Positions 1-21,221 of a stretch of 54,566 nucleotides of DNA are shown here, one piece after another; the first letter of the stretch is position 1, and each line of letters opens with the position of its first letter. Position numbers and translations under genes: made by a program. The DNA is taken from positions 1-54,566 of IMG/VR virus record IMGVR_UViG_3300025168_000112, one strand, 5' to 3'. This DNA comes from a virus. The notes beneath the pieces were generated by a model. That model was not told the DNA's origin. It did not search any database and saw nothing but the letters and a program-made list of their open reading frames with translations.

Positions 1-2503
1 ACATTGTAATAAGCTTTAATCCAAAAGGAGTTTCCCTTATAAATAGATCATACACATCTCTTATAGGCATTGACCCCGCCCAAGATTTTAATCCATCGTC
101 TAAAGCTTTCCATTTTTTATAATGCTCTCTATATAAAGCATCTTTTCTGCTTCTTCCCTCAGTTATTCTAAAGTATCCTTCTTTAAATAAAGCATTGTCA
201 ACCATATTCATAGCTAACATTTGATCCATAGCTTCTGTGGGTTTAGAAACTATTTTCCCATACCTTTTCATTTGCTCTCCTAATTTATAAGGAGAATCTA
301 TGTCTAACCTTTCAATAAGCTTTTCTTGTATTTGAAACGTAATGCTAGATACTGCTTCTGCAGCTTTTTCTAATTTATTTCTTAACGTTGCTTTTTCTTT
401 TTCAGATTCTTTTGAGAGTTTTATTTTTTTAGCAACAATTGTTTGCAGATTTTTAAATGTTCCTAAAAGGTCATATATTTCCCAGAGCTCGTCAAACTCT
501 AAATACCCAGTTTCTGTAGAGTCATTTATTTTCATTCCAGTTTCTGCATACTTCATAACTTCTAAAAGTTCTTCAAAAGTATGCTGCATGTCAGACTCAT
601 TTAAAAGCTCTCTTATAGCTGTAGTAATAAGAGCAACTTGTCTTTTAATGCTAGGAGACTTAGGTCTGTTTTTTATAGCGTCGTACTTATCATACAATAC
701 TTTTAATTTAGCATCTATATCTTTATCTCCTGATTTTTCTTTAGCCATTGGCATTTCAGCTAAAAATTTGTCGTGAGAATCTCCTACTGCAAGGTATGTG
801 ATGCTTGTAAGATCTTTATTAAATCTTAAATGTACAGGTATAAGCCGGGACTCTTTAATTTTAGTAATACCGTACTGCTCTCTTAAAGTTGTTACATAAA
901 ACCCCATTTGATGTTGATAGCCTTCTCCTTTGGCTCCTCTAAATGGATCAAGTAACATATAATAATCATCTTCTTTTTTAGTTACATCTTCAAACTTTGG
1001 ACTCATAAACTTCCAGTCATATATAGAGGCTGCACCTTCAGAGTCAATAAACATAAGGTCTACAGTACCACCAGTGTCCATCTTTTTATTAAAGAGTCGG
1101 ACTTCTGTGTACATGTCTGCTTTTTTATCTTTTTCAGTTTTTTTATTAATAACTTTTTGACGTGCTATTTGCTTATCTAATACACCTTTTACTACGCTTT
1201 TTAAATCTAAAAACATTTGTTTATTTAAACCAGAGTCTTCTTTTAGTTTAGAATAACTTCTTGGTTTAACGGCGTCTTTAAGCTCTACAACATTTATGTA
1301 TTTATGATATTCAAGTTCAGAATCTTGAACCATATTTATAATAATCTCGTGCTGTATGCTGTGCATATTTGTACCCGTATCTCTAAGGAGCTTAGATCTC
1401 TCTCTGTTAGAAATACTTTTATACTCATCTATATTACCAACACTCTTAAAAAAAGATATTGATGATTGGTCTGTTGCTCTTTTAGCTACAATCTTTCCAT
1501 CTACCTTGTATCTAGCTATAACGCCATCTTCATCTGAAAGAATTTCAAACGTTCCTTCATCTATTTTTCCTTTCACCATATCAAACGTAAGATCTTTTAC
1601 GTTTTCCATGCTATCATGAGTTTTAACAATATTTTCCCTCATAATATCTTGCGTCGTAGCATCTCCTAATGACCGGAATATTGTTTCTCTTTTTGATCTA
1701 GATAATGCGTCTGCATACTTAGAGATATCTTCGCTTAATACTTTTTTGACTGCTTTTTTTACAGGGTCAGATTCAAAATTAAATACCTCCTTAAGTTTTC
1801 TTAGCAGTCTTTGCCACCATCTAGCATTTCTGTCTTTTGCTCTTTCTTTAGCATCCAACTTCATTCTATTTAGAATAACTCTTGTGATTGCTTCATCTTT
1901 TATATCTTGCTCGGTCCAATCCGCAAGCCTCCCATACTCTTCTTGTACTTCTAAGTACTCAGGTTCTTGAGCTATCCTTTCATATATAGATGTATATATA
2001 GGATCTTTTAACTCGTTCATTGCAACCACAAACATGTGAATAACCTCTTCTGGTATTTCACTTTCATTCCCTTCTACATACGTAATTGCTTTACTTATTA
2101 TATCTGCTGCTGCTATTCCAGCAATAACATTTCCTTTTCTATCTCTTAACCTGCTTACAGCTTTTTCTGTAACTCCTAATTTTTTCATTGCAGAACGCAT
2201 AGATGCAAGTACTTCTGCCTCTGCTTCTTGCACATATTTTGGAGTAACAACTACCTCTCCTTTTTCTTCGTTTTTATTGTCTATAACATTAAATAAAGGA
2301 TCATTTAAAGCAATAGTTTTTCCAACAGCCCTAAAAGGCAATCCTGGTACATCATATTTAGAAAGTATTAAGGCTGATAGCTTCCTGCTTTCTTGCATAA
2401 CAGTTGCAATAGGAGCAGTTCTTGTTATACCTTCTGCTTCAGACCTACCTAATTTTTCAAGTTCAATGTGGTCTATTATATTTTGTTTTACACTGCAAGC
2501 CAT
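1..2503 (-). CDS. Large virion/late protein with RecB-type PD-(D/E)XK nuclease domain (partial, C-terminus off the left edge)
   Basis: I translated this by hand: the frame is open from the ATG at 2503 to the window edge, giving at least 834 residues. Residues about 377-540 carry the full signature of RecB/Cas4-like PD-(D/E)XK nucleases: GTNMH with His381 (motif GTxxH), GGTVDLMF with Asp482, YDWKF with Asp496 and Lys498, and QHQMGFY with Gln530 and Tyr536. The metal-binding and catalytic residues are therefore intact. Flanking regions are charged and helical with no domain I recognise. The start lies 10 bp after the stop of the giant RNA-polymerase-like gene, so it is the next gene of the same late operon. 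That position suggests a protein packaged in the virion and delivered to the cell, perhaps to cut host DNA or process phage DNA (inference). The nuclease call is firm; the biological role is not known. Confidence 0.85.
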   Translation of the reverse strand, partial: MACSVKQNIIDHIELEKLGRSEAEGITRTAPIATVMQESRKLSALILSKYDVPGLPFRAVGKTIALNDPLFNVIDNKNEEKGEVVVTPKYVQEAEAEVLASMRSAMKKLGVTEKAVSRLRDRKGNVIAGIAAADIISKAITYVEGNESEIPEEVIHMFVVAMNELKDPIYTSIYERIAQEPEYLEVQEEYGRLADWTEQDIKDEAITRVILNRMKLDAKERAKDRNARWWQRLLRKLKEVFNFESDPVKKAVKKVLSEDISKYADALSRSKRETIFRSLGDATTQDIMRENIVKTHDSMENVKDLTFDMVKGKIDEGTFEILSDEDGVIARYKVDGKIVAKRATDQSSISFFKSVGNIDEYKSISNRERSKLLRDTGTNMHSIQHEIIINMVQDSELEYHKYINVVELKDAVKPRSYSKLKEDSGLNKQMFLDLKSVVKGVLDKQIARQKVINKKTEKDKKADMYTEVRLFNKKMDTGGTVDLMFIDSEGAASIYDWKFMSPKFEDVTKKEDDYYMLLDPFRGAKGEGYQHQMGFYVTTLREQYGITKIKESRLIPVHLRFNKDLTSITYLAVGDSHDKFLAEMPMAKEKSGDKDIDAKLKVLYDKYDAIKNRPKSPSIKRQVALITTAIRELLNESDMQHTFEELLEVMKYAETGMKINDSTETGYLEFDELWEIYDLLGTFKNLQTIVAKKIKLSKESEKEKATLRNKLEKAAEAVSSITFQIQEKLIERLDIDSPYKLGEQMKRYGKIVSKPTEAMDQMLAMNMVDNALFKEGYFRITEGRSRKDALYREHYKKWKALDDGLKSWAGSMPIRDVYDLFIRETPFGLKLITM

Positions 2504-2513
2504 GTGTTATTTT

Positions 2514-5500
2514 TTAAGGGCATTCTGTAGGATCAATTGGATCTGTTTCTGAAGATTCAACTTTTTTGTTATACACTATAAAGTCAGATTTAGTATTTAA
2601 ATAAGACATTGAATCGTATCCCGTAGTTTCAATCTTTACTACACCAGTGCTTTCACCGGAATTAATTTCTCCTGTAATTAAATCTCGTGTAAAGATAAGA
2701 TTTTGATAGAGTGCTATATCTCTTTGTTTTCTAGCCATTCCAAACTCTCTGTCTTGTTGAAAGTCTGAATATCTTTTAGCATACATTAAACGCATGTTCT
2801 TAGGAGATTTAGGCTTAGTAAATTCTACCATGTTTGGAAATTTTAACATGTTTGCATGGAATAAACTTAACAGAAGCTCAGAAGAGAATTTTAAAGCGTC
2901 AGGAGTTTTAAGGTATCTACTATACAACTTAGAGGAAATTTCTGCAAATTGATCTCCAGGAAGTTTGTCTAAGAAGGAAAACGGAGTATTCATAGTACCT
3001 GCTTGTAAAATAGCTACATCAAAAAGATCTTTTGCTAAAGTGGTGTTCTTTTTAGCATCGTATGCTACAATCTCTTGGTATGAATCATACATTGCAGCCA
3101 TATCATAAATGTTTACAGCTTTAAACTCAGGTTGTATAAAATCATTTTCTACTATTTTTCCTTTTACAGACTTTCTTTCTTCCTGTACTACAGGTAAAAG
3201 AGAGTTTAAGAATACATTATTTCGTAATGGGTGCTTAGGAGAGTTTATAATCTTTGAAACAGTTACAGCTGCACTTTTTTCTCCAAACAATAAAGTTTGA
3301 GATCTATCATTTATAGCTATACCATCTTCGTTTGGAACTCTTTGAAGTATAAGAGATGTAAAAAACTGCTCTAATCTTTCTAAAGATTTTACTTTTAGAT
3401 CTAAAGGCTGCCTATTCTCTGTGTGTGTAAGCTCTTCAACTTTCATTGCATAAGCATTATTGAAGCTTTTTATTTGATTGTTGTTTACAAACAAATCTCC
3501 AAATACTTCAGATGCTACTAAAGTGTAGTTACGCATTTCTTTAAGGAAACTATTGTCTCCCTCTGTTATTTTTTCTGCGTTAGGAAAGATACCCTCAGCC
3601 ATTACTTTTTCGTAAGCCCTGTTAGTTAGTGCCATTGCAGCACGAGTCTTAGGAAGTTTGGTGTCATAAGACTGCGCAGCAATAACAGTTGTCATTCTAT
3701 CTCCAAGCTCTAAGTACATTAACAAATCATCTAGTATATGCAATTGATATGCATTTTGATCTTCTATACTTAAGTCACCTTCCTTAGTAGGAGTTTCTAT
3801 ACCTCCAATCATTTGCTTAAGTTCTGTATCAGATAAATAAGGTTTGTTTTCTGGAGATGAAATATCACTGTCAGTTTTGTATGCTCTTCTAAGTTTAGTA
3901 ATTGTGTCAGCCGGATACTCTTCCATTCCAAGTGCTTGGTATACTCTACTTGATGCTGTTTTTCTGTTCTCTATGTAATCTCTTACAATAGGCTGATTCA
4001 TAAAATAAACTATGCTTTCTAAAGGAACACCTGCTCTTAATAATACAAGTGCGGCTGGAGCTAATTCTGGACCAAGGTTTAAAATATGTATAATAGGAGT
4101 GTTTACTGTATCTACTGCTAAGTTTACAAACTGAGATATACTATCTGTAACTCTTCTATTATTTAAAACATCTGATATTCTAGATAAAGAAATTGTAGAA
4201 TCTCCTATAAACTCTCCTTCAGAATTTTTTTCTTTTTTAAACTCATCGTAATTAAAATATATTCCTAAAGAGTTTAAAAAGTTTCCGTTTACAAGTTTTA
4301 TTGATTTATTAAGATCTAACCTTAAACCAGCTTTTTGTCCTTTTACTTGATGTGTAGATGCAAGTGCGGATATACCCACATCTTTTGCTCCAGAATAAAA
4401 AGCATCTGTAATTTTAAAAATATGCGGGAGTGTAGTTTCTTCATGGTAGTCCTTTACAACTTGCAAATCTGGAAGTTCTTCGTTGTCTTTATTTTCATAC
4501 AGACTTTGAATTTCTTCAGCTAGACTTTCATAACTGTTTGTATTTACAGGACGAAGAAACTCTTTTTCTCTTCCTTTCATACTTAGTAGATCCGCTACTA
4601 CGTCTAAAGTTTTATTATGAACAGCTTGCTTGGTATTAATATCATATTTAGTAAGAGTTGGATTTTCAATTCTCCAATCTGCAAATAATTTAGGAGTTAC
4701 AAAATCTTTTCCTAGGTTAAAAAACTCTTCTGCTGAATCAAGAACATCTCCCCACATTTCTAAAGCCTCTTCTTTACTAAGATTTCTTTCTAAAGAAAGA
4801 CTTTCCATGTCCATTTCTAAATCTCTTTCTAAAAAGTCTGTAAATTCTTTTGCAAGAAGAGGGTCTTCTTTAAATTGAGCAAGAAAGTCATTAAGTTCTT
4901 TTTCATCTTTTAAATTTCTTTCTAGACCCCTTTCAAATATTTCTTCAAAGTCTTTAAGCTTTTTTCCTATTCTTTGTTGGGTTGAGCTAAACCATTTTTC
5001 TACTGTATCATAAAACTCATCGGGTCTTAAAATTACACCACCAGTTTGTTCATCTGTATAAGCCCTGTAATTTTTAAACAGTGCAGTTAACTTATCAATA
5101 TCAAAATCAGAACCTGCTTTAGTTACAAGACCTGCCGGTACATTAATCCTTGGCCCTGCAGATTGTGGTAAGAAATCTACAACTTCTATTACTTCTATAG
5201 AGTGTATACCGTCTGTAGGAATACGTATACCAATCATTTTTAAAAGTTCCTCTGAACCTTCTACAGTTATACCTCTACCTACTATTTTTCCGTTTATAAT
5301 TTTTACATTTTTACCTAACAGCTCTTTAAACCGGTGAGCTACTCTTACTTGCATTGCCCATCTACCATCAGAGTTTTCGTAAAACTTTAACTCGTTACTA
5401 GCAACTACATCTCCTATTTTTTTTACTTCATAAAATAAATCAGGTGTGTTTACAAGCATTTCACCAGCTACTTTAGGCTTGATGATTTGTGAACCTATAC

Positions 5501-8500
5501 CACTAAGGAACATAGATTCCATTCTATGTCTATCTACAAAGAAATCAAACTTAAAAGCTCCACCTTTTTCTTTCAAATAAGTCACACCTGATAAGATTGA
5601 TTTACCAAGGTCTTTTTCTATTCCCTGGTTTTCTAGTTTATCAAGTATAAGCTCATAAGATTGTTCAGATAGCATATAACCTCTAACGCCATCTTCTATA
5701 GTTGGCTGTATATCTAGCTCTGCTAGCATGTCTGTAAAAGCATTTTTAGTTGCTGCAGACATAAGACTTTGATACTCGGATTCTTTTTCTAAAGCCTCCT
5801 CACTAACAGCAACACCATCTTCATATAAGTCGGAAGATATATGAACTGCTTGCTGTGTAGGTCGTGTGGCTTTATTCTTAAATGATGGTGATATTTCTAA
5901 TTGAGACCCCATAAATCTAAGATCAAAAGTCATTCTTGAACCTTTTACAGGATCCTCAAACTCCATTTCTTCATACGCTCCATTCTCAATACCATAAGAT
6001 ACTTGAGATGTTTCTACAGCTCCTCCCACTTTCATTCCTGTTGGTATAACAAACCCACCAACCCCATTCTCTTCCATATAATCAAGAGCCTTTTTTATGT
6101 TAGGGTATTCAACCCCATTAAAGCGCTCCATATCTCTAGATATAGGAATAATAGCCATTTTAAGGAATCCCATTGCTGGACCAAGGTCTGTTAAAAAGGG
6201 ACCCATATACTGAAACTTATCCGGTGGGAATGTAGCCCCTTCTACTTCCTCATATGAAGAAGATATACCCCCCATAGATTTAGAGAATTGGCTCTCTCTA
6301 TTATTATCCCACTGATCAGAAGTTATTTTTAATAGTCTGTACGTAGGAAGGTCCACATACAAAGCTCCGTCAGCTTTCTCTATAGGTTTCTTCCACTGCT
6401 CAAGTACATCTGGAGTTACCTGCTCACTGTACATCTCTATAATTTCCTCAGACATTCTAGCCATAGGTTCTTTTATAGCTAACAAATCAATCTTTCCATC
6501 TGCCCTGTGAAGGCCTGGAGTATCATCTATCCATTTTAATATTTCTGGACTAAGATCCATAAGAGTTTTTGTACCTACAGCACCTTTAATTCTTTTAAAC
6601 ATATCAGAATAAAAGGCAGGATCACCTAAGAACATTTTAAATATCTCAGTCTTACCTATAAACTGCTTTACTACAATCTCTTCTAAAACATCATTAATGT
6701 TTTTATCAGAGAAGTCTGGATCTTCATTAGCATTTTCTTGAAATAACTCACTGCTTAAAGCATACGGTACTCGAGTACCAGATTCATTTTCTTTTTGTAA
6801 AAGACCTTTTTCAACTAAGAATGAGTCTAATTTTGCAATGTCAACATTCAGTCTTGCAGTTATATCTTTTGCAAAAGCAGCTTCGTTTTCAATCATAAAT
6901 GCCTCTAAGTAATCACTCTCTCCAGGTACTTCTGAAGTGGATTTTTTACTTGAAAACATGATTTCTTTACGAATCTGTTTTAATAGCCTTGGAGTACTTA
7001 ATAAATCTTGAACTATTCCTCTAGAATCTGTAAGGATACTGTCAAAAAATCTTAACTTCTTAATATTGTCTTTGTATTTTGAAGTGTTTTTACCTGCCTC
7101 AATTCCAATTGCAGTTGCGGCAATTTCATCTTTAAGATAGTTTAAGAAAATGCTCATCCCTTGATTTACTTTGGTAGGCATTTCTATAGGTAAACGAACT
7201 CCAAACTCTGTTACCTGGTCTGCTGCTCTTGGGAGGATAGATATACCATCTAAGATTGCATTTAAATGCATTGTAACTACGTCGTTTGAAGATAGTCTAG
7301 ATATTTTTTGACCAGTTTCACCCAGTATGTCGGCTCTTAAACCACCCATATTTATAATATCTATCTTATTTCCACCTCTCCAAGCTTCGATCGCTAAAGA
7401 ATTAGAAGCAAAAGGATTTGAAACAGGATTAAAGTACTCTATAAGGTCAGTGTATTCAAAGTTTGTAAGTGCAGATATGTAGTGATTTCTTATAATAGAA
7501 TACTCCATATTACCCTCACTATTCAAGTACTGGAACTCTACTTCACTATTTCCTGTCCTTAACTCTATATCTGCAAGTGCTCTTGCTCTAGTAACAGCTC
7601 CAGACTTATCCCTTGAAAATATTGTAGCAAAAGATTCTTTTCTAGATATTATATCATCAATAATCCACTCTTGATCTTTTTTAAATCCTAAGAAGGCTTG
7701 GTTTATTTCTTCTTCTTTTTCTTCAAGCATGTAAACAATCTCTTCTTCAAATGCATTTGGAAAAGATTTTTCTAAAGCTGCTCTCTCTAGATCTTCATTA
7801 AAAGTAAATATTTTCTCTACTTCCTTTGGATCTGTAAATTCTATTCCTAAAGGCTTATATAAAGCTATTATAGTAGCTACATCATTAGATTTTTTTGCTC
7901 TGTTAAAAAGGCCTGTCATAGTAGTTTCTATGAGTGTTCCTTTTGGAGATACAAAATTGAATTTTGCGCTTTTATTTATTAAAATTTTACCGTCTTTGTC
8001 TAAGGTTACATGGTTAGACTTTTTATTTGTCTGAGCCCCAAAGTTTTTAAGTCTAGAAGTCCAGTTATAAGAAATCTTTTTTAGAGCCCCTTCTTTTGCG
8101 GGATCCATTGTATATATACGACCATTAGGTTCTACTGACGCAATAGATACATCTAATTTTACTTGTGCCATGTGTACAGCAAAAGCAATTCTAGGTGCTA
8201 TTTGAGAATAAGTTTTACCCTCAGGGTTTATATCTATTCTTTTTACAAGATCTGCTGCCCAAGGAAACTTGTCTTTATTTTGCTTAAGCTTTTTAATTTG
8301 ATTTGCAAAGCTTGTACTTCCTGCAAGAAGATTCTGTGCAGATTTTAAGGTGGTAGACATATTATATGCTCCGTTAAGACCTGTACTGTTAACAGTATTA
8401 GGATCTTCAAACATGCTAAAAATCAGTTTGATTAATCCTGAAGCGCTTTTAGAAGGAGATATAGTTAAAGCATCTAACTCATCCACCCAGTCTTTTGATG

Positions 8501-11500
8501 TAAGAGTCTCTTCATCTATCTCTACACCTTCTTCCTTTACTAATCCAATATCAGTTAAGTATCCATAATGAGCACGTATAGCTTGTTTTACAGTTTCTTT
8601 TTTCTCATTAGAAGATCTACCTATTCTATCTAAAGTTTCAGTTATTGCAGGCTTCCTTTCACTAAATCTGTCAAGTTCGTTTTCTAACGTTATTAGCTTT
8701 TCCCGCAAATTTGAAATGCCTTTTAAATACAAAGCATTTAAACTCTTTTTGCCCAATGGAGTATTGAAAATATCTCCTGTATACAATTCACCAAGCTCTA
8801 CCTTATAAGCTTTTCCACCGTATCTAAAAGTTTTATCTATAAGCCCACCTAACTCTACTGATATACTAGATATCATATCATTAGTATAAACATCATTCCA
8901 CCCTTCTATGCTTTGAAGCATGTTGTATACTCCGGCGTCGGATCTTCCTTGGTGCCTTTTTGCTTTAGCAAACTTACCTTTGTCTATAGATTCAAAAAGA
9001 CCTTCTATAGATGTTATAGAGGAATCAAATTCAAAGTTTTCATTTAATCTAAACAGTCTTCTAAGTACAGATTTAATAACATCAAAGAACTTTTGAATTA
9101 TATTACGTGTATCTGTAACTGTTCCTTCTCCAAACTTGTAGTCTTTACCCATAAGAATATACTTACGGAACTCTTCAGCCGCCCATTCTTCTGCCTCCTT
9201 GTTTGTAAGGTCAGACATTTTCTTTGTCTCTCCTTTATAAGTTACAGTCTCTCCAGGTATCTCTCGTATCTTCTTATAGAGTGTTTTAGAGTCTTTAGGG
9301 GACAACACATATAGAGATACATTATGAAAAGCCTCGTGAAATATAGCTCCAGAAGGCGCTAATTCACTTAATACAACTTTACCAAAAGACACTAATTGAG
9401 CTACTGCTTTACCGTCTAATGAATCAAGGGCTGCCTCAGAAGTTGCTATTTCTAAAGAGGTCATTTTAAGAGCTCTTTGTATTTCTGTCTGAGTGTCTTT
9501 AGAGTAACTTGAAAGAAGCTCTTCTAATGCTTTAGCTTGATCTTCAAGTAAATTAAAAAGATCTTTATCAGTGTCTTCAGATTCATCTAGTGTTTGATTC
9601 AACCAATTTTCAACAATGTCAGAATCAAAATTAAAGCTAGAATTAGCTAGAAAGTTTTTATCTGCTGAGTCATAATACCCTAAAGTATCTCCTCCTTTAA
9701 CAGTTACTTTAAACCATATTTCATCATCCTGCTTTTCTGCCCAAATATCTTCTGGTTTAATTGTGTCAGTGTATCCCAACTTCTTGTGAGTTGCCTCTAG
9801 AGTACCTGAACCAGAAAGACCTTCAAAAAACCCTTCTATTTCTTCGTTTGGATCTACAGGAGGATCTTCTGCTTCTTCTTCAGCTTTCTTTTCAGAAGCT
9901 TCCTTCTTTTTTTTATTTTTTCTATGCTTTTCATAAAAGTCTTTATCTGCAAAAGGCGCGTTTGGGTCTGGATCTACACCCAGCTCTACTGTGTCTCCTA
10001 CTTCTGGATCTTCTCCTGGATCTTCTTCTGGATCAATACCTGAAAGTGCGTTTTCTAAATCGTCTAATTCAGAAGAACTTCCTGCAGTAGGATCGTCTCC
10101 TATATCGTCGCTAGTGTCTTCAGGGTCAAATTCATCTTCACCCTCTATATCTGAAAAAACAGCTTGTCCTCCAGGAGCAGCTTGATCTTCTATATCAAAG
10201 GTTGCAGTAGACATAAGAGTTTTGCCATACACAAGATAACCTCCACCTGCTCTAGGATTTGTAAAAGAAACTTCTTTTAAAGGTCTAGCTTCTGTATATA
10301 AAGGAGCCTCTCCAGACGTGTCTTTGCTAAGTAAGAAATGATTGTAATTAGGATGCTCTGAAGACTTGGTTTGAGAAATAGTTAAATCTTTATTAAGTAC
10401 TACGTTTATATACTTTGATTTAGCGTTGTTTTTATACCTGTTACCGTAGCCCTTAGTTGTTTTTTTAGTCTTTGAATTTTTATTTGAAAACTGGGTTCTT
10501 TTAACACTGTCTTTTAAAAGAGTCCCTCGAACATTATGTCTTTTAGTTTTAAGAAACTCTAAAAGCTCTTCTCCTTTTTCAGTATTCTCCTCCATGTCTT
10601 CAAGAGTAGCATACTCATCCATTTCTTTAAAGTAAACTACAAGATCATTATCTTTTAGCCTGTAAGCTAATCGAAATTTAGAATCTTCTGCATTTAAAAT
10701 ATGCACCATAGATCTAATCTGGGCTCTTAACGTTACGCTTTCGTTACCGTACTCAAGAGAAAATCTTTCTGCCTTTTTTAAAGCATCTACGTTTGATAGA
10801 CCACTTTCTTTAGCTGCAGCAAATTCTTTTAGTAGTAGTTTAAAAAGTCTTTGTACTTGAACAGCTTTTGTCTCTCCCAACTCTGATCTCCTCATAAATA
10901 TAGGCATGTGCCTAACGTGGTCATAAGCAACTATCTGACCGGGGCGTACCATAACAGAGTTTGCCTTTTTAATAAACTTGATAGTATCATATTTATACTC
11001 ACCCTCTGCATTTGGGTCTGTGTTCTTAATTACTTTTCCTACTGCTATTTTTACATTTTCAAGATTAGTACTCATTATAGAATCAGATGCGTAGTTTTCT
11101 TCGCCTCTATCAAGTAGTATAGTACCAGGAGATTTACCAGTTATTGGAGCTATAAGGAGTTGATTCGTATCATTTATTTTTTTCCTTATGTCATTATTAT
11201 ACTCTTTTTGTATGTCTTCTATTTCACTCTTAGATAAATTATCAATTTTGTTTGTGAACTTGTTTTCTCCTCTTTTATTTTTTACAGTTGGATCTTCAAT
11301 AGAAGTAAAGACGGCTCCTTTTGTTTCTCCGTCCCTTACAAACTGAATTGATATTTTACCAGTAGTTGCATTTCTAACTTTTCTTACAAGAGCTACTTTT
11401 ATATCCTTGTACTTAGCATCTTTATTATTTTGATGGTACCAAGTTCCTTCTAGATCTGCAGCAACATCTTCAGGTACAACTGTATCTTCAGATATAAATG

Positions 11501-14500
11501 CTAGAAAATATTGTGAACTTATATTTTTGTTCTTGTTATCTATACTTGTTCCTAGTAGATTCTTATTATCTTTTTGTATATACTGAAACCAATTGAGTTG
11601 GCTAGTAGCAGTCTTAAGCTCATTAAGTTGCTTTTTATTAAGCTCTTTTCCTTCTTTCTTTTTCTTTTCTTGTAGGTCTATTAATCTTTCATATATTTCT
11701 AAACTTCTTTCATAGACAGTTTGGTCTATTTTAAATCCTATGTGAGCCCCCGCAGTTTTATGTAAGCCTGGCATAGAAATATCTGGCTTATATAAACCTT
11801 CTTCTGATTCCATAGAAGTAAAATCGTTCTCTAAAGAATCGTAATCTACCTCTTCTGTTTTTTTCCATTCTTCGGCTAGTGGAACTCTTACTAAAAGATC
11901 TCTAAATACCTGTATCTGTCTTAACCCAGAATAGGTTTTTTGGACATCTTTTATATTCTTTTTAAGCGCTTTTATATCTTTATTGACCTCTTTAAGTTCT
12001 GCAACCTGCTTGTCTATTGCCATTTGAATAGCCTCAACAGGTACCTTATTTACTTGAGAAGATTTGTCTTTCCACTTGCCCTCTACATCAAACACTTCTA
12101 CACCAGGATTGGACTTTACAATATCTTCTGCTATGTTTATTAATTTTTTAAGAGAGCCTATATGAGCTTTAAGATCTTTCTTATAAGCTTCAAGATCCTC
12201 TATAGCTTTCTCATGATCCTTAATAAGGTTTGCAGCTACTGATTGTACACCAAAATCTGTTGCTGTAAATCCTTCTTTTTCTGCTCTTTTTAAAAGTACT
12301 TCGTGTATAGCTTCAAACTCGGCAGGCATAAGTTCTGGATCAAGCTCATTTTTCATGAACATATCTAGAATCTGGATATTCTCACTTATTGTTCTATGCT
12401 GCTCAGGATAAGTCTCTTTTACAAACGTAGTATATTCGCTCTCTGCTACATCTACAAGCTCTTTTGCAGTTGCTATTTCTTTAATTAGCTGCTCTCTTGT
12501 AATAAACTTGTCGTTGTATTTAAACTTTTTTTGTTGAGGCTTCTTCTTAAGCTTTTCTACATAAGATTTCATACCTGTTAAAATCTCAATAGCCTCTTGA
12601 AGAGTTTCTTGCTTTTCAGTTAACTGATTATTTAGCTCTTGCATTTTTTCTAAGAGCTCTTGCTTGTAATAATCAATTACTTTTTTAAACTTTTTTACTC
12701 TTTTTTCAGATTTAGTTTTTTCTGTGTCAAACTTCTCTGTCTCCTCTTTTATCTTTTTTCTAAGATCATTTGCAGAGGCCTCCATTTGCTTATTATACTT
12801 CTCTCTTAAAGAAGGGTCTATAAGCGTTTGATATTTTTGAGCAAAATCAATTCTATCCGCCCTGAGTGCACGGATATCTTTCATCATTTTGCGAACTTCT
12901 TTTTTATGTTTAGCTGCTTTTTCTGGAAACTCTTTTTCCCAAGCAGTTACTTGCTCATCATTAGTTATGCTACCTGCTTCTTGTAAAAGATTGTATACCG
13001 GCTTAGATTGGTCTTCTATTTTTTCAAGTTCTGTTGTATAGCTTTTAAGATCTTTTAGCTGCTCATTTTCTACTTGTGTACGACTCCCTCCTTTAGCTTC
13101 TAGGTCTTCAATTCTTCTTCTAGACTCAACTATGTGCTCAAATACAGTGCTACCTACATTCATAGCACCTATTTGAAGAACTCTTTTAGTACCGTCACTG
13201 TTTTGGTATTCAATACTGCTTATTTCATTACTTATAGATACTACTTTACCTCCAGTAAGTTCAGCAAGTTTTGATATCATTGCCTCTTCTCTACGAACAT
13301 TCTCGTCCATCTTAGAAGCATAGTGTATAAGTTCTCTACGGACAGCTGCCATAGAGCCTGGTTTACCAAGCCCTATAACTTTATCCATATCATTTAATCT
13401 TAATCCTGAATCTACAAGCTCTTGGCTTTCTTTTATTGTTTTAAGCTTTTGTTTAATAGTGGTAGCTAAGTAAGCTCTCCTTTCAGCGAGATCTTCTTTT
13501 GTCATACCATCTTCATAATTATACATTTCTTTTAAAGCTTCATCAGATATTTCTGATAAGTCCTGCTCTATTTTAGTTTCTAAAGATTCAAAATCGTTAC
13601 TATCTATAGCTAGCATTGCAGCCTCCCAGAACTCGTCGTACTCAAAGTCTTTAGCTTTTTTTGTATCTCCGTTTTCAATTGCTGCATTAAGAGCTTCTTT
13701 AGTTTTAGCTATCTGCATCATCATCCATGCAGTTTGCTCCATTTTAGCCCCAAGAGAAGGATTTGCTTTTTTTATTCTTGCGTATTCATCTGCAAACTTT
13801 TTATTTACAGCTTCAAACTCTTGAATACCTTCCATCTGAGTAGATTGAGATGCAAGATCTCCTGTCCACCCTATACCTTTGTACCAGCCTGCTTTACCTC
13901 CTTGACCAGGCATACCAAGTGCAGCTGCTAAAGCACCGATAAGAATTTCTGTTTGGCCTTCTTTAGAACCATAAGACTCATCAAAACCTCTAGCAAAAGC
14001 ATCATGCCACTCACCTACAAGTTGTAAAGTTCCATTATCTCCTATACGACTCCTAAGAGCGTAGTCTTCTGATGCCCTAGCCATTACTCCTTGACCACCT
14101 TCCTCTACAAAACCTTCATAAAGAGATCTTTTTACCCAAGACCCAAGTCCTCTAGCGACTGTAATACCTTTATCTCCAAGTCCCGCTTTACCTAAAGCTT
14201 TGTGAATCATATCTCTTTTAGGTACTCCAGAAAATCCAAGAGCATCTTTAGCTTTTGTGTACAAGCTACTTTTTGCTGCAGATTTATTCATACGACTCAG
14301 CACTCCAGCCCCGTAAAGCCCTGGTAAGGTTATCATATTACCCACCCCTACAAGAAGTAAGTTACCTGCAAATTGAAAGTTTGATATAGAGGCCGCAGTT
14401 TCAAATATCTCTGCTCTCTCTTGAGGTGTTAAAAGGTTTCCTTTTTCTTCTATAGTTAAAGCTCTTCCTGCATCTTGTTCTCCTAGAGCTATTCTATCTC

Positions 14501-15494
14501 CAAAATTTTCTGTTAATAGTGTATTTAAAGCTACATCATATCCGTGTTTAGCTTCAATAGATGCTTCGTACCCTGCACCGGTCATTAACTGTCTACTTAT
14601 TTTTAAAGCATCAAGAGACTTTCTACTTTGAGCAACTTTCTTTCCTGCCTCTATTACTTTTCTAGGTACAGTTGCCCTTCCTACGCCTTTAAATACTTTA
14701 GTTGCTAGACGTGTTAAACGCATAGCATTACCTGTTGCGGCAGCACCTCCTACTGCAACAGTACCTGCTCCTGGTAAAGCACTACCTATAAGACCACCAA
14801 GACCTACTGCTGCAAGCTCAGTTAAAACTGCACCTGCAATAAAAGTAATTCCGTTTGCAAACTTATCTGCCCAAAAATTACCGTAGGCCATTTGACCAAA
14901 CAGGCTTGCTTCTTTTTCTTGTTGTGTATAATAGAAAGGAAGTTTTTCAGATAATTCATCATTAAGATAATCTAGCCCATCAAAGAGCTCATTATCCCAA
15001 ATGTTTCTTATTACTTCTGCCGCAGAATCGTCTTTATCTGTAAAAGGAGCTTCAGCTGCTTTGTATATGGTTTTTAATACACCATACCCTACACCACCTA
15101 TACCTCCTACTACATTTGTACCTACACCCCCAATAAATCTTGGTACAAAATTTCCGAACTTATCCCATCCAGTTTGATTCCTACCTCTTAATTCTTCAAG
15201 GTTATTAAGTTGATATGCACGGCTAGCGTTTTTATCATATTGAGACGATCCAAATTCTTCAGGTACATTTATTATCGGAGTTTCTACAGGAGAGGTTGCA
15301 TCTGCTTGAGACTGTATGTTTAAAATATCTAAAGGATTTTGTTCTAAAACAACCTCATCTTCTGAATATAAATTAGATATTACAGGGTCTGTCCCATTCT
15401 TTTTTTCAGGATCTGTATAAGGTAATGCAGAGTCATTAAATGTCTCATCTGCATATAAATTATTCAAGATATTATCGGAATTGCTATCTGACAT
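2514..15494 (-). CDS. Giant 4326-residue virion protein: putative single-chain RNA polymerase with zincin motif
   Basis: This is the largest gene in the window. Regions in order: Gly/Ala-rich hydrophobic stretches at about 100-400, which could touch membranes; long charged coiled coils at about 600-1230; a very acidic linker at about 1770-1890; the metallopeptidase motif HEAFH at 2053-2057 (HExxH zincin); and the motif AGSDFDIDKL, with DFDID at 3463-3467. The DxDxD triad after a 'P-A-G-L-V-x-K-x-G-S' stretch is the form of the catalytic Mg-binding loop in the virion RNA polymerase of crAss-like phages (gp66 of Cellulophaga phage phi14:2), a single chain with two double-psi beta-barrels. Known family role: it is packaged, ejected with the DNA and transcribes early genes. 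I infer the same role here. It is far longer than phi14:2 gp66, so it appears to be a fusion of polymerase with ejection or protease modules. Start is ATG, 20 bp after the previous stop, with no Shine-Dalgarno. Confidence 0.8.
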   Translation of the reverse strand: MSDSNSDNILNNLYADETFNDSALPYTDPEKKNGTDPVISNLYSEDEVVLEQNPLDILNIQSQADATSPVETPIINVPEEFGSSQYDKNASRAYQLNNLEELRGRNQTGWDKFGNFVPRFIGGVGTNVVGGIGGVGYGVLKTIYKAAEAPFTDKDDSAAEVIRNIWDNELFDGLDYLNDELSEKLPFYYTQQEKEASLFGQMAYGNFWADKFANGITFIAGAVLTELAAVGLGGLIGSALPGAGTVAVGGAAATGNAMRLTRLATKVFKGVGRATVPRKVIEAGKKVAQSRKSLDALKISRQLMTGAGYEASIEAKHGYDVALNTLLTENFGDRIALGEQDAGRALTIEEKGNLLTPQERAEIFETAASISNFQFAGNLLLVGVGNMITLPGLYGAGVLSRMNKSAAKSSLYTKAKDALGFSGVPKRDMIHKALGKAGLGDKGITVARGLGSWVKRSLYEGFVEEGGQGVMARASEDYALRSRIGDNGTLQLVGEWHDAFARGFDESYGSKEGQTEILIGALAAALGMPGQGGKAGWYKGIGWTGDLASQSTQMEGIQEFEAVNKKFADEYARIKKANPSLGAKMEQTAWMMMQIAKTKEALNAAIENGDTKKAKDFEYDEFWEAAMLAIDSNDFESLETKIEQDLSEISDEALKEMYNYEDGMTKEDLAERRAYLATTIKQKLKTIKESQELVDSGLRLNDMDKVIGLGKPGSMAAVRRELIHYASKMDENVRREEAMISKLAELTGGKVVSISNEISSIEYQNSDGTKRVLQIGAMNVGSTVFEHIVESRRRIEDLEAKGGSRTQVENEQLKDLKSYTTELEKIEDQSKPVYNLLQEAGSITNDEQVTAWEKEFPEKAAKHKKEVRKMMKDIRALRADRIDFAQKYQTLIDPSLREKYNKQMEASANDLRKKIKEETEKFDTEKTKSEKRVKKFKKVIDYYKQELLEKMQELNNQLTEKQETLQEAIEILTGMKSYVEKLKKKPQQKKFKYNDKFITREQLIKEIATAKELVDVAESEYTTFVKETYPEQHRTISENIQILDMFMKNELDPELMPAEFEAIHEVLLKRAEKEGFTATDFGVQSVAANLIKDHEKAIEDLEAYKKDLKAHIGSLKKLINIAEDIVKSNPGVEVFDVEGKWKDKSSQVNKVPVEAIQMAIDKQVAELKEVNKDIKALKKNIKDVQKTYSGLRQIQVFRDLLVRVPLAEEWKKTEEVDYDSLENDFTSMESEEGLYKPDISMPGLHKTAGAHIGFKIDQTVYERSLEIYERLIDLQEKKKKEGKELNKKQLNELKTATSQLNWFQYIQKDNKNLLGTSIDNKNKNISSQYFLAFISEDTVVPEDVAADLEGTWYHQNNKDAKYKDIKVALVRKVRNATTGKISIQFVRDGETKGAVFTSIEDPTVKNKRGENKFTNKIDNLSKSEIEDIQKEYNNDIRKKINDTNQLLIAPITGKSPGTILLDRGEENYASDSIMSTNLENVKIAVGKVIKNTDPNAEGEYKYDTIKFIKKANSVMVRPGQIVAYDHVRHMPIFMRRSELGETKAVQVQRLFKLLLKEFAAAKESGLSNVDALKKAERFSLEYGNESVTLRAQIRSMVHILNAEDSKFRLAYRLKDNDLVVYFKEMDEYATLEDMEENTEKGEELLEFLKTKRHNVRGTLLKDSVKRTQFSNKNSKTKKTTKGYGNRYKNNAKSKYINVVLNKDLTISQTKSSEHPNYNHFLLSKDTSGEAPLYTEARPLKEVSFTNPRAGGGYLVYGKTLMSTATFDIEDQAAPGGQAVFSDIEGEDEFDPEDTSDDIGDDPTAGSSSELDDLENALSGIDPEEDPGEDPEVGDTVELGVDPDPNAPFADKDFYEKHRKNKKKKEASEKKAEEEAEDPPVDPNEEIEGFFEGLSGSGTLEATHKKLGYTDTIKPEDIWAEKQDDEIWFKVTVKGGDTLGYYDSADKNFLANSSFNFDSDIVENWLNQTLDESEDTDKDLFNLLEDQAKALEELLSSYSKDTQTEIQRALKMTSLEIATSEAALDSLDGKAVAQLVSFGKVVLSELAPSGAIFHEAFHNVSLYVLSPKDSKTLYKKIREIPGETVTYKGETKKMSDLTNKEAEEWAAEEFRKYILMGKDYKFGEGTVTDTRNIIQKFFDVIKSVLRRLFRLNENFEFDSSITSIEGLFESIDKGKFAKAKRHQGRSDAGVYNMLQSIEGWNDVYTNDMISSISVELGGLIDKTFRYGGKAYKVELGELYTGDIFNTPLGKKSLNALYLKGISNLREKLITLENELDRFSERKPAITETLDRIGRSSNEKKETVKQAIRAHYGYLTDIGLVKEEGVEIDEETLTSKDWVDELDALTISPSKSASGLIKLIFSMFEDPNTVNSTGLNGAYNMSTTLKSAQNLLAGSTSFANQIKKLKQNKDKFPWAADLVKRIDINPEGKTYSQIAPRIAFAVHMAQVKLDVSIASVEPNGRIYTMDPAKEGALKKISYNWTSRLKNFGAQTNKKSNHVTLDKDGKILINKSAKFNFVSPKGTLIETTMTGLFNRAKKSNDVATIIALYKPLGIEFTDPKEVEKIFTFNEDLERAALEKSFPNAFEEEIVYMLEEKEEEINQAFLGFKKDQEWIIDDIISRKESFATIFSRDKSGAVTRARALADIELRTGNSEVEFQYLNSEGNMEYSIIRNHYISALTNFEYTDLIEYFNPVSNPFASNSLAIEAWRGGNKIDIINMGGLRADILGETGQKISRLSSNDVVTMHLNAILDGISILPRAADQVTEFGVRLPIEMPTKVNQGMSIFLNYLKDEIAATAIGIEAGKNTSKYKDNIKKLRFFDSILTDSRGIVQDLLSTPRLLKQIRKEIMFSSKKSTSEVPGESDYLEAFMIENEAAFAKDITARLNVDIAKLDSFLVEKGLLQKENESGTRVPYALSSELFQENANEDPDFSDKNINDVLEEIVVKQFIGKTEIFKMFLGDPAFYSDMFKRIKGAVGTKTLMDLSPEILKWIDDTPGLHRADGKIDLLAIKEPMARMSEEIIEMYSEQVTPDVLEQWKKPIEKADGALYVDLPTYRLLKITSDQWDNNRESQFSKSMGGISSSYEEVEGATFPPDKFQYMGPFLTDLGPAMGFLKMAIIPISRDMERFNGVEYPNIKKALDYMEENGVGGFVIPTGMKVGGAVETSQVSYGIENGAYEEMEFEDPVKGSRMTFDLRFMGSQLEISPSFKNKATRPTQQAVHISSDLYEDGVAVSEEALEKESEYQSLMSAATKNAFTDMLAELDIQPTIEDGVRGYMLSEQSYELILDKLENQGIEKDLGKSILSGVTYLKEKGGAFKFDFFVDRHRMESMFLSGIGSQIIKPKVAGEMLVNTPDLFYEVKKIGDVVASNELKFYENSDGRWAMQVRVAHRFKELLGKNVKIINGKIVGRGITVEGSEELLKMIGIRIPTDGIHSIEVIEVVDFLPQSAGPRINVPAGLVTKAGSDFDIDKLTALFKNYRAYTDEQTGGVILRPDEFYDTVEKWFSSTQQRIGKKLKDFEEIFERGLERNLKDEKELNDFLAQFKEDPLLAKEFTDFLERDLEMDMESLSLERNLSKEEALEMWGDVLDSAEEFFNLGKDFVTPKLFADWRIENPTLTKYDINTKQAVHNKTLDVVADLLSMKGREKEFLRPVNTNSYESLAEEIQSLYENKDNEELPDLQVVKDYHEETTLPHIFKITDAFYSGAKDVGISALASTHQVKGQKAGLRLDLNKSIKLVNGNFLNSLGIYFNYDEFKKEKNSEGEFIGDSTISLSRISDVLNNRRVTDSISQFVNLAVDTVNTPIIHILNLGPELAPAALVLLRAGVPLESIVYFMNQPIVRDYIENRKTASSRVYQALGMEEYPADTITKLRRAYKTDSDISSPENKPYLSDTELKQMIGGIETPTKEGDLSIEDQNAYQLHILDDLLMYLELGDRMTTVIAAQSYDTKLPKTRAAMALTNRAYEKVMAEGIFPNAEKITEGDNSFLKEMRNYTLVASEVFGDLFVNNNQIKSFNNAYAMKVEELTHTENRQPLDLKVKSLERLEQFFTSLILQRVPNEDGIAINDRSQTLLFGEKSAAVTVSKIINSPKHPLRNNVFLNSLLPVVQEERKSVKGKIVENDFIQPEFKAVNIYDMAAMYDSYQEIVAYDAKKNTTLAKDLFDVAILQAGTMNTPFSFLDKLPGDQFAEISSKLYSRYLKTPDALKFSSELLLSLFHANMLKFPNMVEFTKPKSPKNMRLMYAKRYSDFQQDREFGMARKQRDIALYQNLIFTRDLITGEINSGESTGVVKIETTGYDSMSYLNTKSDFIVYNKKVESSETDPIDPTECP

Positions 15495-17630: not shown

Positions 17631-20600
17631 TTATAACCCGTGCTTTTCATTATAATCTGCTCGAGCTTTATTTACCGCTTTATCTTCATCTTCTTTCGAA
17701 ATAGTAGGATTTTTAGCTTTTATTTGCTGTCTAGCTAAAACTTCACTAAATCCAGCGCCTCTTTCATTAGTTCCGGCTCCCTCTCCAATAGCTCTTATTT
17801 CTTGTTTATTTATACCTGTCTGAATTATATTTTTTACTCCTGTAAGTATAGGGTCTATTGTAGCTTGTCTACGCTGTCTTAAGAATGCGTCTTGTGCTCT
17901 ATCTTCGTTTTCAAGTCTTACGTTATACCTGTCAATAACAGCTGCATTTTCTCTATCTGCAGAAAATTTGTTTTTAGCATTTTCAGTATTTTCACTAATA
18001 GATGCAGCTAAATTAACTCTATTTGCTTCTGCCCGTACTTTATTATCTGCGGATATTTTATCGTTATATGCTAGCTGTGCAGAAGCTTCAAGTCCTGTAC
18101 CATAACCTTTTTGTTCGCTTTCTTTAAACCTTTTTACATAGTTCCTTTGGTTTTCAGCTAACCCTTCTCTAGGACTAACACGATCGTTTCTAATTCTATC
18201 TGCTTTTATTATTTGAGGTTTTCTAATTTCAACATCTTCTCTTTCAGTTAAGCCTGCTGTTATAGATGCCCCTATAGCTGCTGCTCCTTGTATCCATGGT
18301 ATATGTCCACCTGAATTTGTCCAACGTTTAAACCCAGATACCTCTCCTGTCCCTCTTTTATATTTAGGAAGAGACCCTCCGTATTTTGCTATATTCAAAG
18401 TTTTAGGATACTCTTTGTCTCCGGGTTTTGCAGGACTTTCTCCCCTAGCTCTTTTAGCATGTATATTAGCCCACAGCCCTGGTCGTCCTCCTTTTCCATA
18501 TTCCATCATTCCCCCATACTTTCCCATTGGCACATCAGGTGGTGCCATCATATCTTTTGACTCTTGAGGATTACCAGCACGTCCTGCTAGTTTTTCTTGT
18601 AGCATCTTAAGTTGGTCTATTTCCTGTGGAGTAGCACCGTTTTTTACAGCTGTTGCATATAGTTGAGCCATTGATCTTCCTTTATAAGTAAGATGATCAG
18701 ACCATACATAATCTCCTTCATTTAAAACTTCTGGTACACCACCTTTTTCATGTGTAGCTCCTACAACAAGTTCATCTGGTCCACCGTCTCGCATAATAAT
18801 TTCATCCTTCTCAACCTCTGCATTAGCTCTAGGTCTAGTAACTCCTTTTGTTACAGACATTCCCCCGTATCTATATTGAGGTAGGTATCCTCCTTTTCTA
18901 TATAAGTCTTTCATAGTTCCTCCATATTTTGCCTCACCCATATTGTATTCAGCCTTTTCTTGAAGACCTCTTGGAGTTGCAATTCCACCTTCAACACTCC
19001 TAAGAGACTGTTCTTTACGTCCCATAAAGTTTTTAGCTGAAGTCCCACCTTTTGAAGTGGCTCTTTCTCTTGCAAGTTGTTTTTGTTCGCTTTTGTATTG
19101 TTCTGAGTCAGCTGCGGCATCTGCTGCATCGAAAAATTTTCCAACTCCAATCATACTTAATGCTGCCCTACCGTAATCTCCTTTAGCTGCATGATCAGCT
19201 ACACTCTCATAAAATGGAGTTGTTAAAGAACCTACAGCTGCTGCTGCTTCACTATCATAAACACTTACTTTTTCACCGCTTTTTAATCTTCTTTCTTCTT
19301 CTCCCAGAAGAGATCGAACTCCGCCCAGTGCCTGGTCAATTACACCAAAAACAGGAACAGCAGCTCCAATTGCAGCACCTACACCTTCTGATACACCTTC
19401 TGCTACTTGCTCTGATTTAAGCTGATTAGCGTCAAGATTATTTGCTCCTTGACTATAACTGTAAGGATTTTCTTGTTGAACTGCGTTCATCTCAGGAGCA
19501 TAAGACATTTCTCCTCCTGTTTGTTTTTTAGGTAAACCCGTTGTATTTCTCATATACTCATACAGATTATATTTGCTCACCCCTCCATTTGGGTTTAGTG
19601 CATTTGCACGTCCAGCTTCTATTTGAGGATTCCCACTTGGCACGTATTTAGGCTGAGTAGGATCTTGTGTAATAGCAATTTTTTCGTTTTCTGTAAAAAA
19701 TCCTGTCTTATCAAAAGCATTTGTTTTTTTCCAAGGCATTTCTCTATTTATAGAGGGGCTTGTATCATATGGGTTAGGCGTACCTTGTTGATATTTTGGT
19801 AATTCACCTCCCATTTCATATGTAGGAGCACCATATGTATAACCACTACTGTATCTTGAGTTTTCTAGTCCAGCTGCTTTATTTTTTGCATTAAGAAGAT
19901 CATAACTAAAGTTGTTTTGTTTTGCGTTTTTAAACGCTTTCATTTCATCATTTGCATTTTTAATGTTGCCTGCTACTTCCATACCAAAACCCACTGCTTG
20001 TAGAGCCGCGTTTCCAAAAGATTTACCTGCCCCTTTACCTGCCCCTTTATCGGCTCCACCAAATAAAGATGTTGAATTTTCTGTAACTACATTATCAGAT
20101 CTTAAGCCGTGTAAATACGTTGGTTTTTCTCCTGGAGGACCTTGCCAGGAGCCATAACCGTATTTAGGCAAACCGTCTTCTCTAGTCCCTCCGTATCTAT
20201 TTAAACTTACTGGAAATGTTTTTGAAGGTTGATACATTTTTTTTTCAAACTTAAAATCAAAAGAAGGGTTACCGGCCATTTCATTATTATATATAGCATC
20301 CTTTAGTTCGATTACATTTGGACTCATGCTAGTAGATGTATAAGGTCTAAATACATCTTTACTAGCTTGAACTGCACCTCTAGGATTTAATTCATTTACC
20401 CGTCTTTGATAGTCTTCTATATTAGCTTCATTCTTTGCTATTTCTCTACTAATGCGTTCTTCTGGAAATTCTTTTCTTACCTCTCTTTCAATGTATTCGG
20501 ATGCCATTTCATCTGACAAGCCTTCCATACCTGAAGCCCTCCATGCAGCCCTGTCTTTAGAGTCTAGTACCTCTCTAAGATTTTTATCTGGTAAATTATA

Positions 20601-21221
20601 AGAGCCAAGTGTAGATTGTTTTCTACCTGTTTCTAAAAAATGTTTTTCAGAGGCACTAAGTGGAGATGTACCATATTTACCGTAAACGTCAGTTACCATC
20701 TGCTCACGCTTTTTAGTAAAGTCTCCTACTCCTAATTCTTTTAAGTTTTTACCTTCATTTTCTAAAGCATTTAGAATTTTAGGATCTACAAATTTACTTA
20801 GCTGCTCTTTATAAGCAGCAGCAGTTTTTGCAGTTCTAGCTGCTCTTATACCTTGAGCTATACCCGCTGCACCTGCACCTAATAATTCTTCTGCAATAAG
20901 TTGATTGTGAAAATCTTGACTCATACGATCCCCCATAAACTGTGCATTAGGCGCACCTGGACTGTTTTTAGATAAAAAACTGGTTGGTGGATAATCTACT
21001 GTTCCTGATGTATAAGGATTTTGAGATTGAACTTCTCCAGACTGTATTCGTCTTTGTAAGTCTGCGGTATTTATCTCATTCTGACGCATAGCTGCATCTT
21101 GAGCTATAATATTTTCTACGTTTATAGGTGAAATATTAGATGCTGTAGTAGAAGCTGCTGCAGTTGTTGTTCTAGGGTCAGTACCATTACGATACATTTG
21201 TAAGAGTCGTTTCTTTTTCAT
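17631..21221 (-). CDS. Putative virion cargo protein, 1196 residues, with repeated LPKYxxG motifs
   Basis: Gly/Tyr/Lys-rich protein carrying a short motif several times: LPKYGYGS 351-358, LPKYQQGT 474-481, LPKKQTGG 563-570, LPQYRYGG 780-787 and LPKYKRGT 951-958, usually after Gly-Gly. Its N-terminus (LLQMYRNGT, 6-14) lines up without gaps with that of the peptidoglycan hydrolase encoded at 41759-45745. Residues about 815-865 hold a 'HEKGGVPEVLNEGDYVWSD' block resembling a conserved segment I associate with crAss-like and other Bacteroidota phage cargo proteins; this resemblance is from memory. A glycine-rich helical stretch at about 600-640 could be membrane-active. It overlaps the muzzle gene by 4 bp (ATGA), so translation is probably coupled. 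Role as an internal ejected protein is inferred from place and composition. Confidence 0.65.
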   Translation of the reverse strand: MKKKRLLQMYRNGTDPRTTTAAASTTASNISPINVENIIAQDAAMRQNEINTADLQRRIQSGEVQSQNPYTSGTVDYPPTSFLSKNSPGAPNAQFMGDRMSQDFHNQLIAEELLGAGAAGIAQGIRAARTAKTAAAYKEQLSKFVDPKILNALENEGKNLKELGVGDFTKKREQMVTDVYGKYGTSPLSASEKHFLETGRKQSTLGSYNLPDKNLREVLDSKDRAAWRASGMEGLSDEMASEYIEREVRKEFPEERISREIAKNEANIEDYQRRVNELNPRGAVQASKDVFRPYTSTSMSPNVIELKDAIYNNEMAGNPSFDFKFEKKMYQPSKTFPVSLNRYGGTREDGLPKYGYGSWQGPPGEKPTYLHGLRSDNVVTENSTSLFGGADKGAGKGAGKSFGNAALQAVGFGMEVAGNIKNANDEMKAFKNAKQNNFSYDLLNAKNKAAGLENSRYSSGYTYGAPTYEMGGELPKYQQGTPNPYDTSPSINREMPWKKTNAFDKTGFFTENEKIAITQDPTQPKYVPSGNPQIEAGRANALNPNGGVSKYNLYEYMRNTTGLPKKQTGGEMSYAPEMNAVQQENPYSYSQGANNLDANQLKSEQVAEGVSEGVGAAIGAAVPVFGVIDQALGGVRSLLGEEERRLKSGEKVSVYDSEAAAAVGSLTTPFYESVADHAAKGDYGRAALSMIGVGKFFDAADAAADSEQYKSEQKQLARERATSKGGTSAKNFMGRKEQSLRSVEGGIATPRGLQEKAEYNMGEAKYGGTMKDLYRKGGYLPQYRYGGMSVTKGVTRPRANAEVEKDEIIMRDGGPDELVVGATHEKGGVPEVLNEGDYVWSDHLTYKGRSMAQLYATAVKNGATPQEIDQLKMLQEKLAGRAGNPQESKDMMAPPDVPMGKYGGMMEYGKGGRPGLWANIHAKRARGESPAKPGDKEYPKTLNIAKYGGSLPKYKRGTGEVSGFKRWTNSGGHIPWIQGAAAIGASITAGLTEREDVEIRKPQIIKADRIRNDRVSPREGLAENQRNYVKRFKESEQKGYGTGLEASAQLAYNDKISADNKVRAEANRVNLAASISENTENAKNKFSADRENAAVIDRYNVRLENEDRAQDAFLRQRRQATIDPILTGVKNIIQTGINKQEIRAIGEGAGTNERGAGFSEVLARQQIKAKNPTISKEDEDKAVNKARADYNEKHGL

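Follow-up and report, generated by a model that had tools for sequence, protein, structure and literature searches.

A gp47-type cargo protein and a crAss-like virion RNA polymerase fused in one chain, with a predicted zincin at their junction

Introduction

The most abundant gut phages are characterised by giant virion RNA polymerases (RNAPs). The locus described here encodes a chain of 4326 residues in which a DxDxD motif of RNAP type and an HExxH motif of metallopeptidase type occur together, and raises the question of what such a chain is composed of and what a peptidase site does beside a polymerase. The initial annotation had proposed that the zincin cuts the chain and releases the polymerase, or that it opens the cell envelope.

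Genomic Setting of the Giant Gene

The window (the whole 54,566-base stretch of the IMG/VR record analysed here) is a divergent contig of the Crassvirales, with terminase, portal and capsid proteins of that order. Its terminase shares only 40% identity with the closest phage records, every one of them crAss-like. The giant gene and its neighbour are as follows.

2514–15494, minus strand: ORF of 4326 aa plus stop in an uninterrupted frame, gp47-like cargo module, zincin and crAss-like virion RNA polymerase
2–2503, minus strand: next gene, cut by the contig end, RNAP-associated cargo protein (from its position and a relative's homology to cr108_1 gp52)

The single frame runs from 15494 to 2514 and covers 23.8% of the window, in agreement with the ORF and the share of about 24% first reported for it; the positions given for HEAFH (2053–2057) and DFDID (3463–3467, within SDFDIDK 3462–3468) are likewise exact. 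In L001, the nearest relative, the homologue of the 2–2503 gene matches cr108_1 gp52 (1e-37), and the order of the two genes is the same as that of phi14:2 gp66-gp65. An HExxH of its own is frequent in the downstream cargo protein (phi14:2 gp65 or its syntenic counterpart), as in L003:18008-22273, L005:18690-24713 and L076:13139-19174; the motif is absent from the part of the gene within the window (2–2503). Two different ORFs of the window, 17631–21221 and 41759–45745, share repeated motifs such as GGxLPKYQxG; within one short stretch, the former is also similar to several PHROGs of unknown function.

The RNA Polymerase Region

Three features define the polymerase.

3795–6707, minus strand: RNA polymerase catalytic core, residues 2930–3900 (profile and model matches to 6VR4)
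5094–5108, minus strand: DFDID catalytic loop, residues 3463–3467, three Asp invariant in 78/78 sequences, aligned with DFDID 1361–1365 of phi14:2 gp66
6030–6032, minus strand: K3155, invariant Lys, putative catalytic Lys of the beta-like barrel

Single-sequence searches with the whole protein (Pfam, NCBIfam, PHROGs, PDB) detected neither the RNAP nor the zincin domain, and the RNAP came up only with family profiles. The last 1426 residues matched crAss-like RNAPs (tblastn), phi14:2 gp66 among them (1e-9). Residues 2930–3900 were aligned with 77 relatives from viral contigs (78 sequences), and the resulting profile had 6VR4 as its sole PDB match, over the whole length of ~970 positions (E 3.5e-107). 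This entry is the virion-packaged RNAP of phi14:2. Modelling of the core (AlphaFold2, pLDDT 80, pTM 0.82) returned the same structure as the only significant Foldseek match (E 1.6e-25, prob 1.00, TMq 0.59, 970 columns). The two double-psi beta-barrels (DPBB) that such an enzyme should contain are recognised through this match, which is to the two-barrel structure overall and not barrel by barrel. The domain is not a T7-like single-subunit RNAP of the N4 type, as it fits two-barrel 6VR4.

Residues D3463, D3465, D3467, K3468, K3093, K3112, K3155, R3424 and G3461 are invariant across the 78 sequences, as is the motif DFD(I/V)DK. A bare DxDxD is weak evidence because ~1.4 copies are expected in the giant by chance, and a second one (DTDKD) is present at 1974; the chance count of [SA]DFD[IV]DK is 9e-5. 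The crAss-like virion RNAP proposed at the outset is borne out by the profile, the model, the three Asp and K3093/K3112/K3155. Judged from its sequence, the region of residues ~2240–4326 is a two-barrel RNAP of the phi14:2 gp66/crAss001 gp50 family, and this assignment is strongly supported, as firmly as sequence and model allow. By analogy with phi14:2 and crAss001, the giant would be packaged in the virion and would transcribe early genes. It shares with phi14:2 gp66 (6VR4) and crAss001 gp50 a catalytic core of ~970 residues, the DFDID loop, conserved Lys residues and a place in the cargo block, but is ~20% identical to them and is fused in frame to a gp47-type protein. Unlike the giant, phi14:2 gp66 and its neighbour gp67 are without a zincin motif.

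Some relatives carry additional sequence in this part of the chain. The giant of L001, 88–94% identical to that of the window, has an insertion of ~370 residues inside the RNAP, after the catalytic loop (L001:12026-13228, giant residues ~3600–3970; site at window ~4710), which the window giant lacks. The insertion ends in the motif FNPRNAVKLGSKQDIQGFKDF, and no family was found for it in Pfam, PHROGs or NCBIfam. ADP-ribosyltransferase domains with a related end motif (ART-PolyVal, PF18760, E 3.5e-8 to 1e-10) are inserted in the RNAP giants or adjoining cargo proteins of other relatives (L012:12512-13384, L010:14572-15324, L216:15657-16439, L160:2340-3086), as if one effector module were moving between the injected proteins of these viruses. 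In cr108_1 (L006:15800-16130) the giant is broken within the DxDxD motif, with a ~290-base gap between the ORFs that is probably an intron.

The N-Terminal Half and the Fusion of Two Cargo Proteins

The half of the chain upstream of the polymerase contains the following.

13905–15266, minus strand: conserved N-terminal domain, residues 77–530, homologous to the crAss001 gp47 N-terminus, phi14:2 gp67 and phi17:2 gp39
14772–14861, minus strand: hydrophobic Gly/Ala segment, residues 212–241 (hydropathy scan)
11895–13697, minus strand: charged E/K/L/Q/A-rich region, residues 600–1200, probably helical (composition)
9615–10157, minus strand: acidic, poorly conserved linker, residues 1780–1960 (charge and low identity to L001)
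8775–8897, minus strand: putative module boundary and predicted cut region, residues 2200–2240 (from the ends of gp47-type ORFs in split relatives)

The giant matches crAss001 gp47 directly (BLASTP, 2e-6), and its relative in L001 does so more strongly (9e-19). The N-terminal domain also matches phi17:2 gp39 (BLASTP, 1e-24), an ORF that has this domain and is without the RNAP motif. The homologous N-terminal domain and the position adjoining the RNAP place this half in the crAss001 gp47 family. Both the N-terminal hydrophobic Gly/Ala sequence and the acidic linker of the initial annotation were recovered, the former as the stretch at 212–241, possibly a membrane-active segment, and the latter with 28% Asp+Glu and a net charge of −36 over residues 1801–2000. 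Identity to L001 falls to 56–59% in the linker. Residues 801–1000 are 52% E/K/L/Q/A, a composition as in coiled coils. No family could be assigned between residues 540 and 1780.

Since the N-terminal half matches crAss001 gp47 and the C-terminal half matches gp50/phi14:2 gp66, the giant is gp47 and gp50 in one chain: by homology, residues 1 to ~2200 correspond to crAss001 gp47 and the rest to gp50/phi14:2 gp66, so that two virion cargo proteins are fused in it. Virions of crAss001 contain gp47, gp49 and gp50 (PMC10172136). Like the giant, crAss001 gp47 (a virion cargo protein, 'RNA-polymerase subunit') has the N-terminal domain and a C-terminal HEAFH zincin; it differs in being encoded by a separate gene, on the strand opposite to gp50. 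In split relatives with a complete gp47-type ORF (crAss001, Dulem virus 41, L041, L176), this ORF usually ends 147–185 residues past HExxH, which puts the module boundary of the giant at ~2200–2240.

The fusion itself is not new, as the same single-ORF layout occurs in other Suoliviridae: cr1_1 (4551 aa), cr4_1 (4491 aa), cr10_1, cr50_1, cr56_1, cr114_1 and cr118_1. These giants of 12.8–14.8 kb share with the window's the order gp47-like, zincin, RNAP and the same neighbours, but are ~20% identical to it, and some need stop-codon recoding. Among the loci surveyed below, 126/170 are fused. The single ORF is the usual layout in Suoliviridae and the architecture is common in crAss-like phages; an earlier paper notes that crAss RNAPs are fused to large uncharacterised proteins (PMC10770324). 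In GenBank, the RNAP giants of NC_055868, NC_055872 and NC_055890 (L089, L091, L092) are named 'DNA helicase', 'exonuclease V' and 'nuclear pore complex protein-like protein'.

The Probable Zincin Domain

Near the junction of the two modules lie the residues of a putative metal site.

8925–9407, minus strand: predicted zincin (gluzincin-type) domain, residues ~2030–2190 (invariant site residues, profile, model helices)
9324–9338, minus strand: HEAFH motif, residues 2053–2057, H2053 and E2054 invariant in 66/66
9186–9188, minus strand: E2103, candidate third zinc ligand in the next helix (EEWAAEEF), invariant in 66/66, Thr where HExxH is WExxR

In an alignment of residues 1958–2200 with 65 relatives (66 sequences, ~20% identity), H2053, E2054 and E2103 are the three positions that never vary; residue 2057 is H in 45 sequences and E in 21. 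With 97–99% identity to L001, the region ranks among the best conserved of the chain. In a model of this slice, HEAFH lies on helix 93–106 (slice numbering, pLDDT 84–93) and E2103 on the next conserved helix, 141–161 (slice numbering, confident), which supplies both the zincin helix and a candidate for the third ligand. The region before the two helices, where the beta-sheet is expected, has pLDDT <50, and Foldseek returned no zincin match and nothing usable. These two results, with the negative single-sequence library scans, would fit an accidental HEAFH in a domain that is not a metallopeptidase. Such an accident is very improbable: all 66 sequences, at ~20% identity, keep the H, the E and E2103 unchanged, these three disappear together and covary with a neighbouring charge, and the number of HExxH expected by chance in a protein of this composition is 0.04.

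The loss and covariation are seen in two sets of relatives. In a single clade of fused giants (L150, L166, L203, L206, L215; several ORFs of ~5500–5640 aa), WExxR (WEAFR) replaces HExxH and the third-ligand Glu becomes Thr, both together. In the HExxE variant (23 loci, e.g. L042, L069, L087), the residue before E2103 is Lys/Arg in 23/23, against 0/92 at HExxH loci; one extra HExxE locus, whose aligned sequence has no third-ligand Glu, was not counted. Over the tree, the HExxE and Lys/Arg changes each occur six times, and together, in 5/5 independent pairs (sign test 0.06, the minimum reachable with five pairs). Decay was considered as an explanation of HExxE and rejected, because the change of the second His to Glu is paired with a fixed Lys/Arg change, as would not be the case in a decaying site. 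The coupling of HExxH to the third ligand is the best evidence for a zincin, and residues ~2030–2190 very probably form a gluzincin. The metallopeptidase proposed by the initial annotation is well supported by sequence (E2103 is invariant, and lost with HExxH); the model did not confirm it as a fold.

Profile comparison gave weak matches to known zincins. The zincin profile aligns with the metallopeptidase family alignment of N4 vRNAP, HExxH on HExxH (Prob 80.6, P 1.3e-5); against the single N4 sequence the result was too weak (hhalign, Prob 6). Weak PDB matches to Pro-Pro endopeptidase (E ~0.9) align E2103 with its equivalent Glu. Pfam and PHROGs searches over the 66 members gave no consistent or significant family, and none that is cell-wall-directed. 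This bears on the proposal of an action on the cell envelope, in which the zincin would attack peptidoglycan or a cell-wall protein and let the DNA in. Such a role would suit a domain of an injected protein that also has the hydrophobic segment 212–241, and some tape-measure proteins, that of P23-45 with its fused vRNAP among them, have metallopeptidase domains. The motif, however, resembles protein-cutting zincins, those of N4 type and, very weakly, Pro-Pro endopeptidase, and the searches returned nothing cell-wall-directed. Opening of the envelope thus gained no support and is unlikely.

Other phages combine the same elements differently. N4-like virion RNAPs (Schitoviridae) and zincin 'polyvalent proteins' resemble the giant as large injected RNAP chains with a zincin, their zincin profiles matching weakly, but the N4 RNAP is T7-like and not two-barrel, its zincin follows the RNAP, and the vRNAP is packaged uncut. 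The tail-tape-fused vRNAP of P23-45 is also a giant chain with a DxDxD two-barrel RNAP and a metallopeptidase; it differs in that its RNAP is N-terminal and fused to the tape measure of a long-tailed phage. With RNAP and a predicted zincin, two unrelated enzymatic domains, in one presumably injected chain, the giant is a polyvalent protein in the sense of Iyer et al. 2017.

Motif Retention and Possible Self-Processing

From these comparisons the following course may be proposed. The gp47-type cargo protein and the crAss-like virion RNAP are made as one chain with the gluzincin-like domain at the junction; as in relatives, the chain would be packed in the capsid and ejected via the tail, and the RNAP would then transcribe early genes. 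Less certainly, the zincin would cut the chain near itself, at about residues 2200–2240. The ejection module and the RNAP would then come apart as two products, each of which has a gene of its own in crAss001 and phi14:2.

Fusion and zincin motif were scored at 170 loci, the best-scoring 80 of each of three scans and so not a random sample; loci truncated at a contig end were left out. Among fused loci (126), 90 have HExxH, 23 HExxE, 5 a dead site and 8 none detected; among split loci (44), the numbers are 7 HExxH, 1 HExxE and 36 none. The motif is present in 113/126 fused versus 8/44 split loci, as scored with a zincin profile trained mainly on fused ones. On the tree (FastTree, with many weak branches), 12 independent pairs differ in fusion, and the motif follows in ~6 and opposes in 0 (sign test, median p 0.03). 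A first small sample, in which every fused giant kept the motif, was overturned by the larger one. Contigs of crAss001 type (L180, L182, L185, L191 and others) have long RNAP ORFs that were rejected as zincin-less fusions, being without the gp47 domain, and were scored as split or left out.

Retention that tracks fusion, and gp47-type ORFs that end at the corresponding position in split relatives, both fit a cut at 2200–2240. Against it stand the five fused giants of the WEAFR clade and the 8 further ones with no zincin detected, so cleavage by the zincin is not universally required. The zincin is also kept in crAss001, where gp47 and gp50 are already separate, and N4 vRNAP, which also bears a zincin, enters the virion unprocessed (PMC5512222). 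The same observations can be turned into a different reading, in which the giant stays uncut like the N4 enzyme (PMC5512222), the zincin is an effector on a host or other phage protein, or structural, and fusion only couples ejection to transcription. Zincins on separate gp47-type proteins (crAss001, Dulem virus 41, L041, L176) and fused chains with a dead or absent site favour an uncut giant, as does the proposal by the P23-45 authors that a fused vRNAP links transcription to the entry of DNA (PMC10770324). An effector role, however, does not predict that motif retention tracks fusion with no opposing independent pair, and we consider an uncut giant a real possibility, well short of an even chance.

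Because the sample is non-random, the profile fused-trained and the tree weak, and because counter-cases exist, self-processing by the zincin is put at about an even call, no higher. The release of the polymerase by the zincin, as first suggested, is consistent with retention on the tree and is opposed by the 13/126 fused loci without a working motif, the case being circumstantial. Taken as a whole, a fused gp47-type cargo and RNAP chain that the zincin cleaves at ~2200–2240 is the explanation we favour, with a confidence slightly above even. A fuller account, in which the polymerase is self-processing, gene fission repeatedly made the peptidase dispensable, and one set of lineages rebuilt the site as HExxE with a compensating Lys/Arg, an alternative metal-site arrangement, is offered tentatively and may well be wrong.

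That zincins may process the giant injected phage proteins in which they lie was already put forward in 2017, for polyvalent proteins including the N4 RNAP (PMC5512222). No mention of a zincin in crAss-like RNAP giants was found in the literature searched, which excluded Yutin 2018 and Drobysheva 2021 (these may mention it). What is new here is evidence suggesting that the peptidase site is kept mainly where the two parts are fused.

A chain of ~480 kDa must pass a narrow tail and then become an active polymerase, and the comparative pattern makes self-cleavage directly testable. If it is true, the catalytic residue would be E2054, the third ligand E2103 and the cut region 2200–2240, and fused relatives with a dead site and split relatives with a live one would serve as natural controls.
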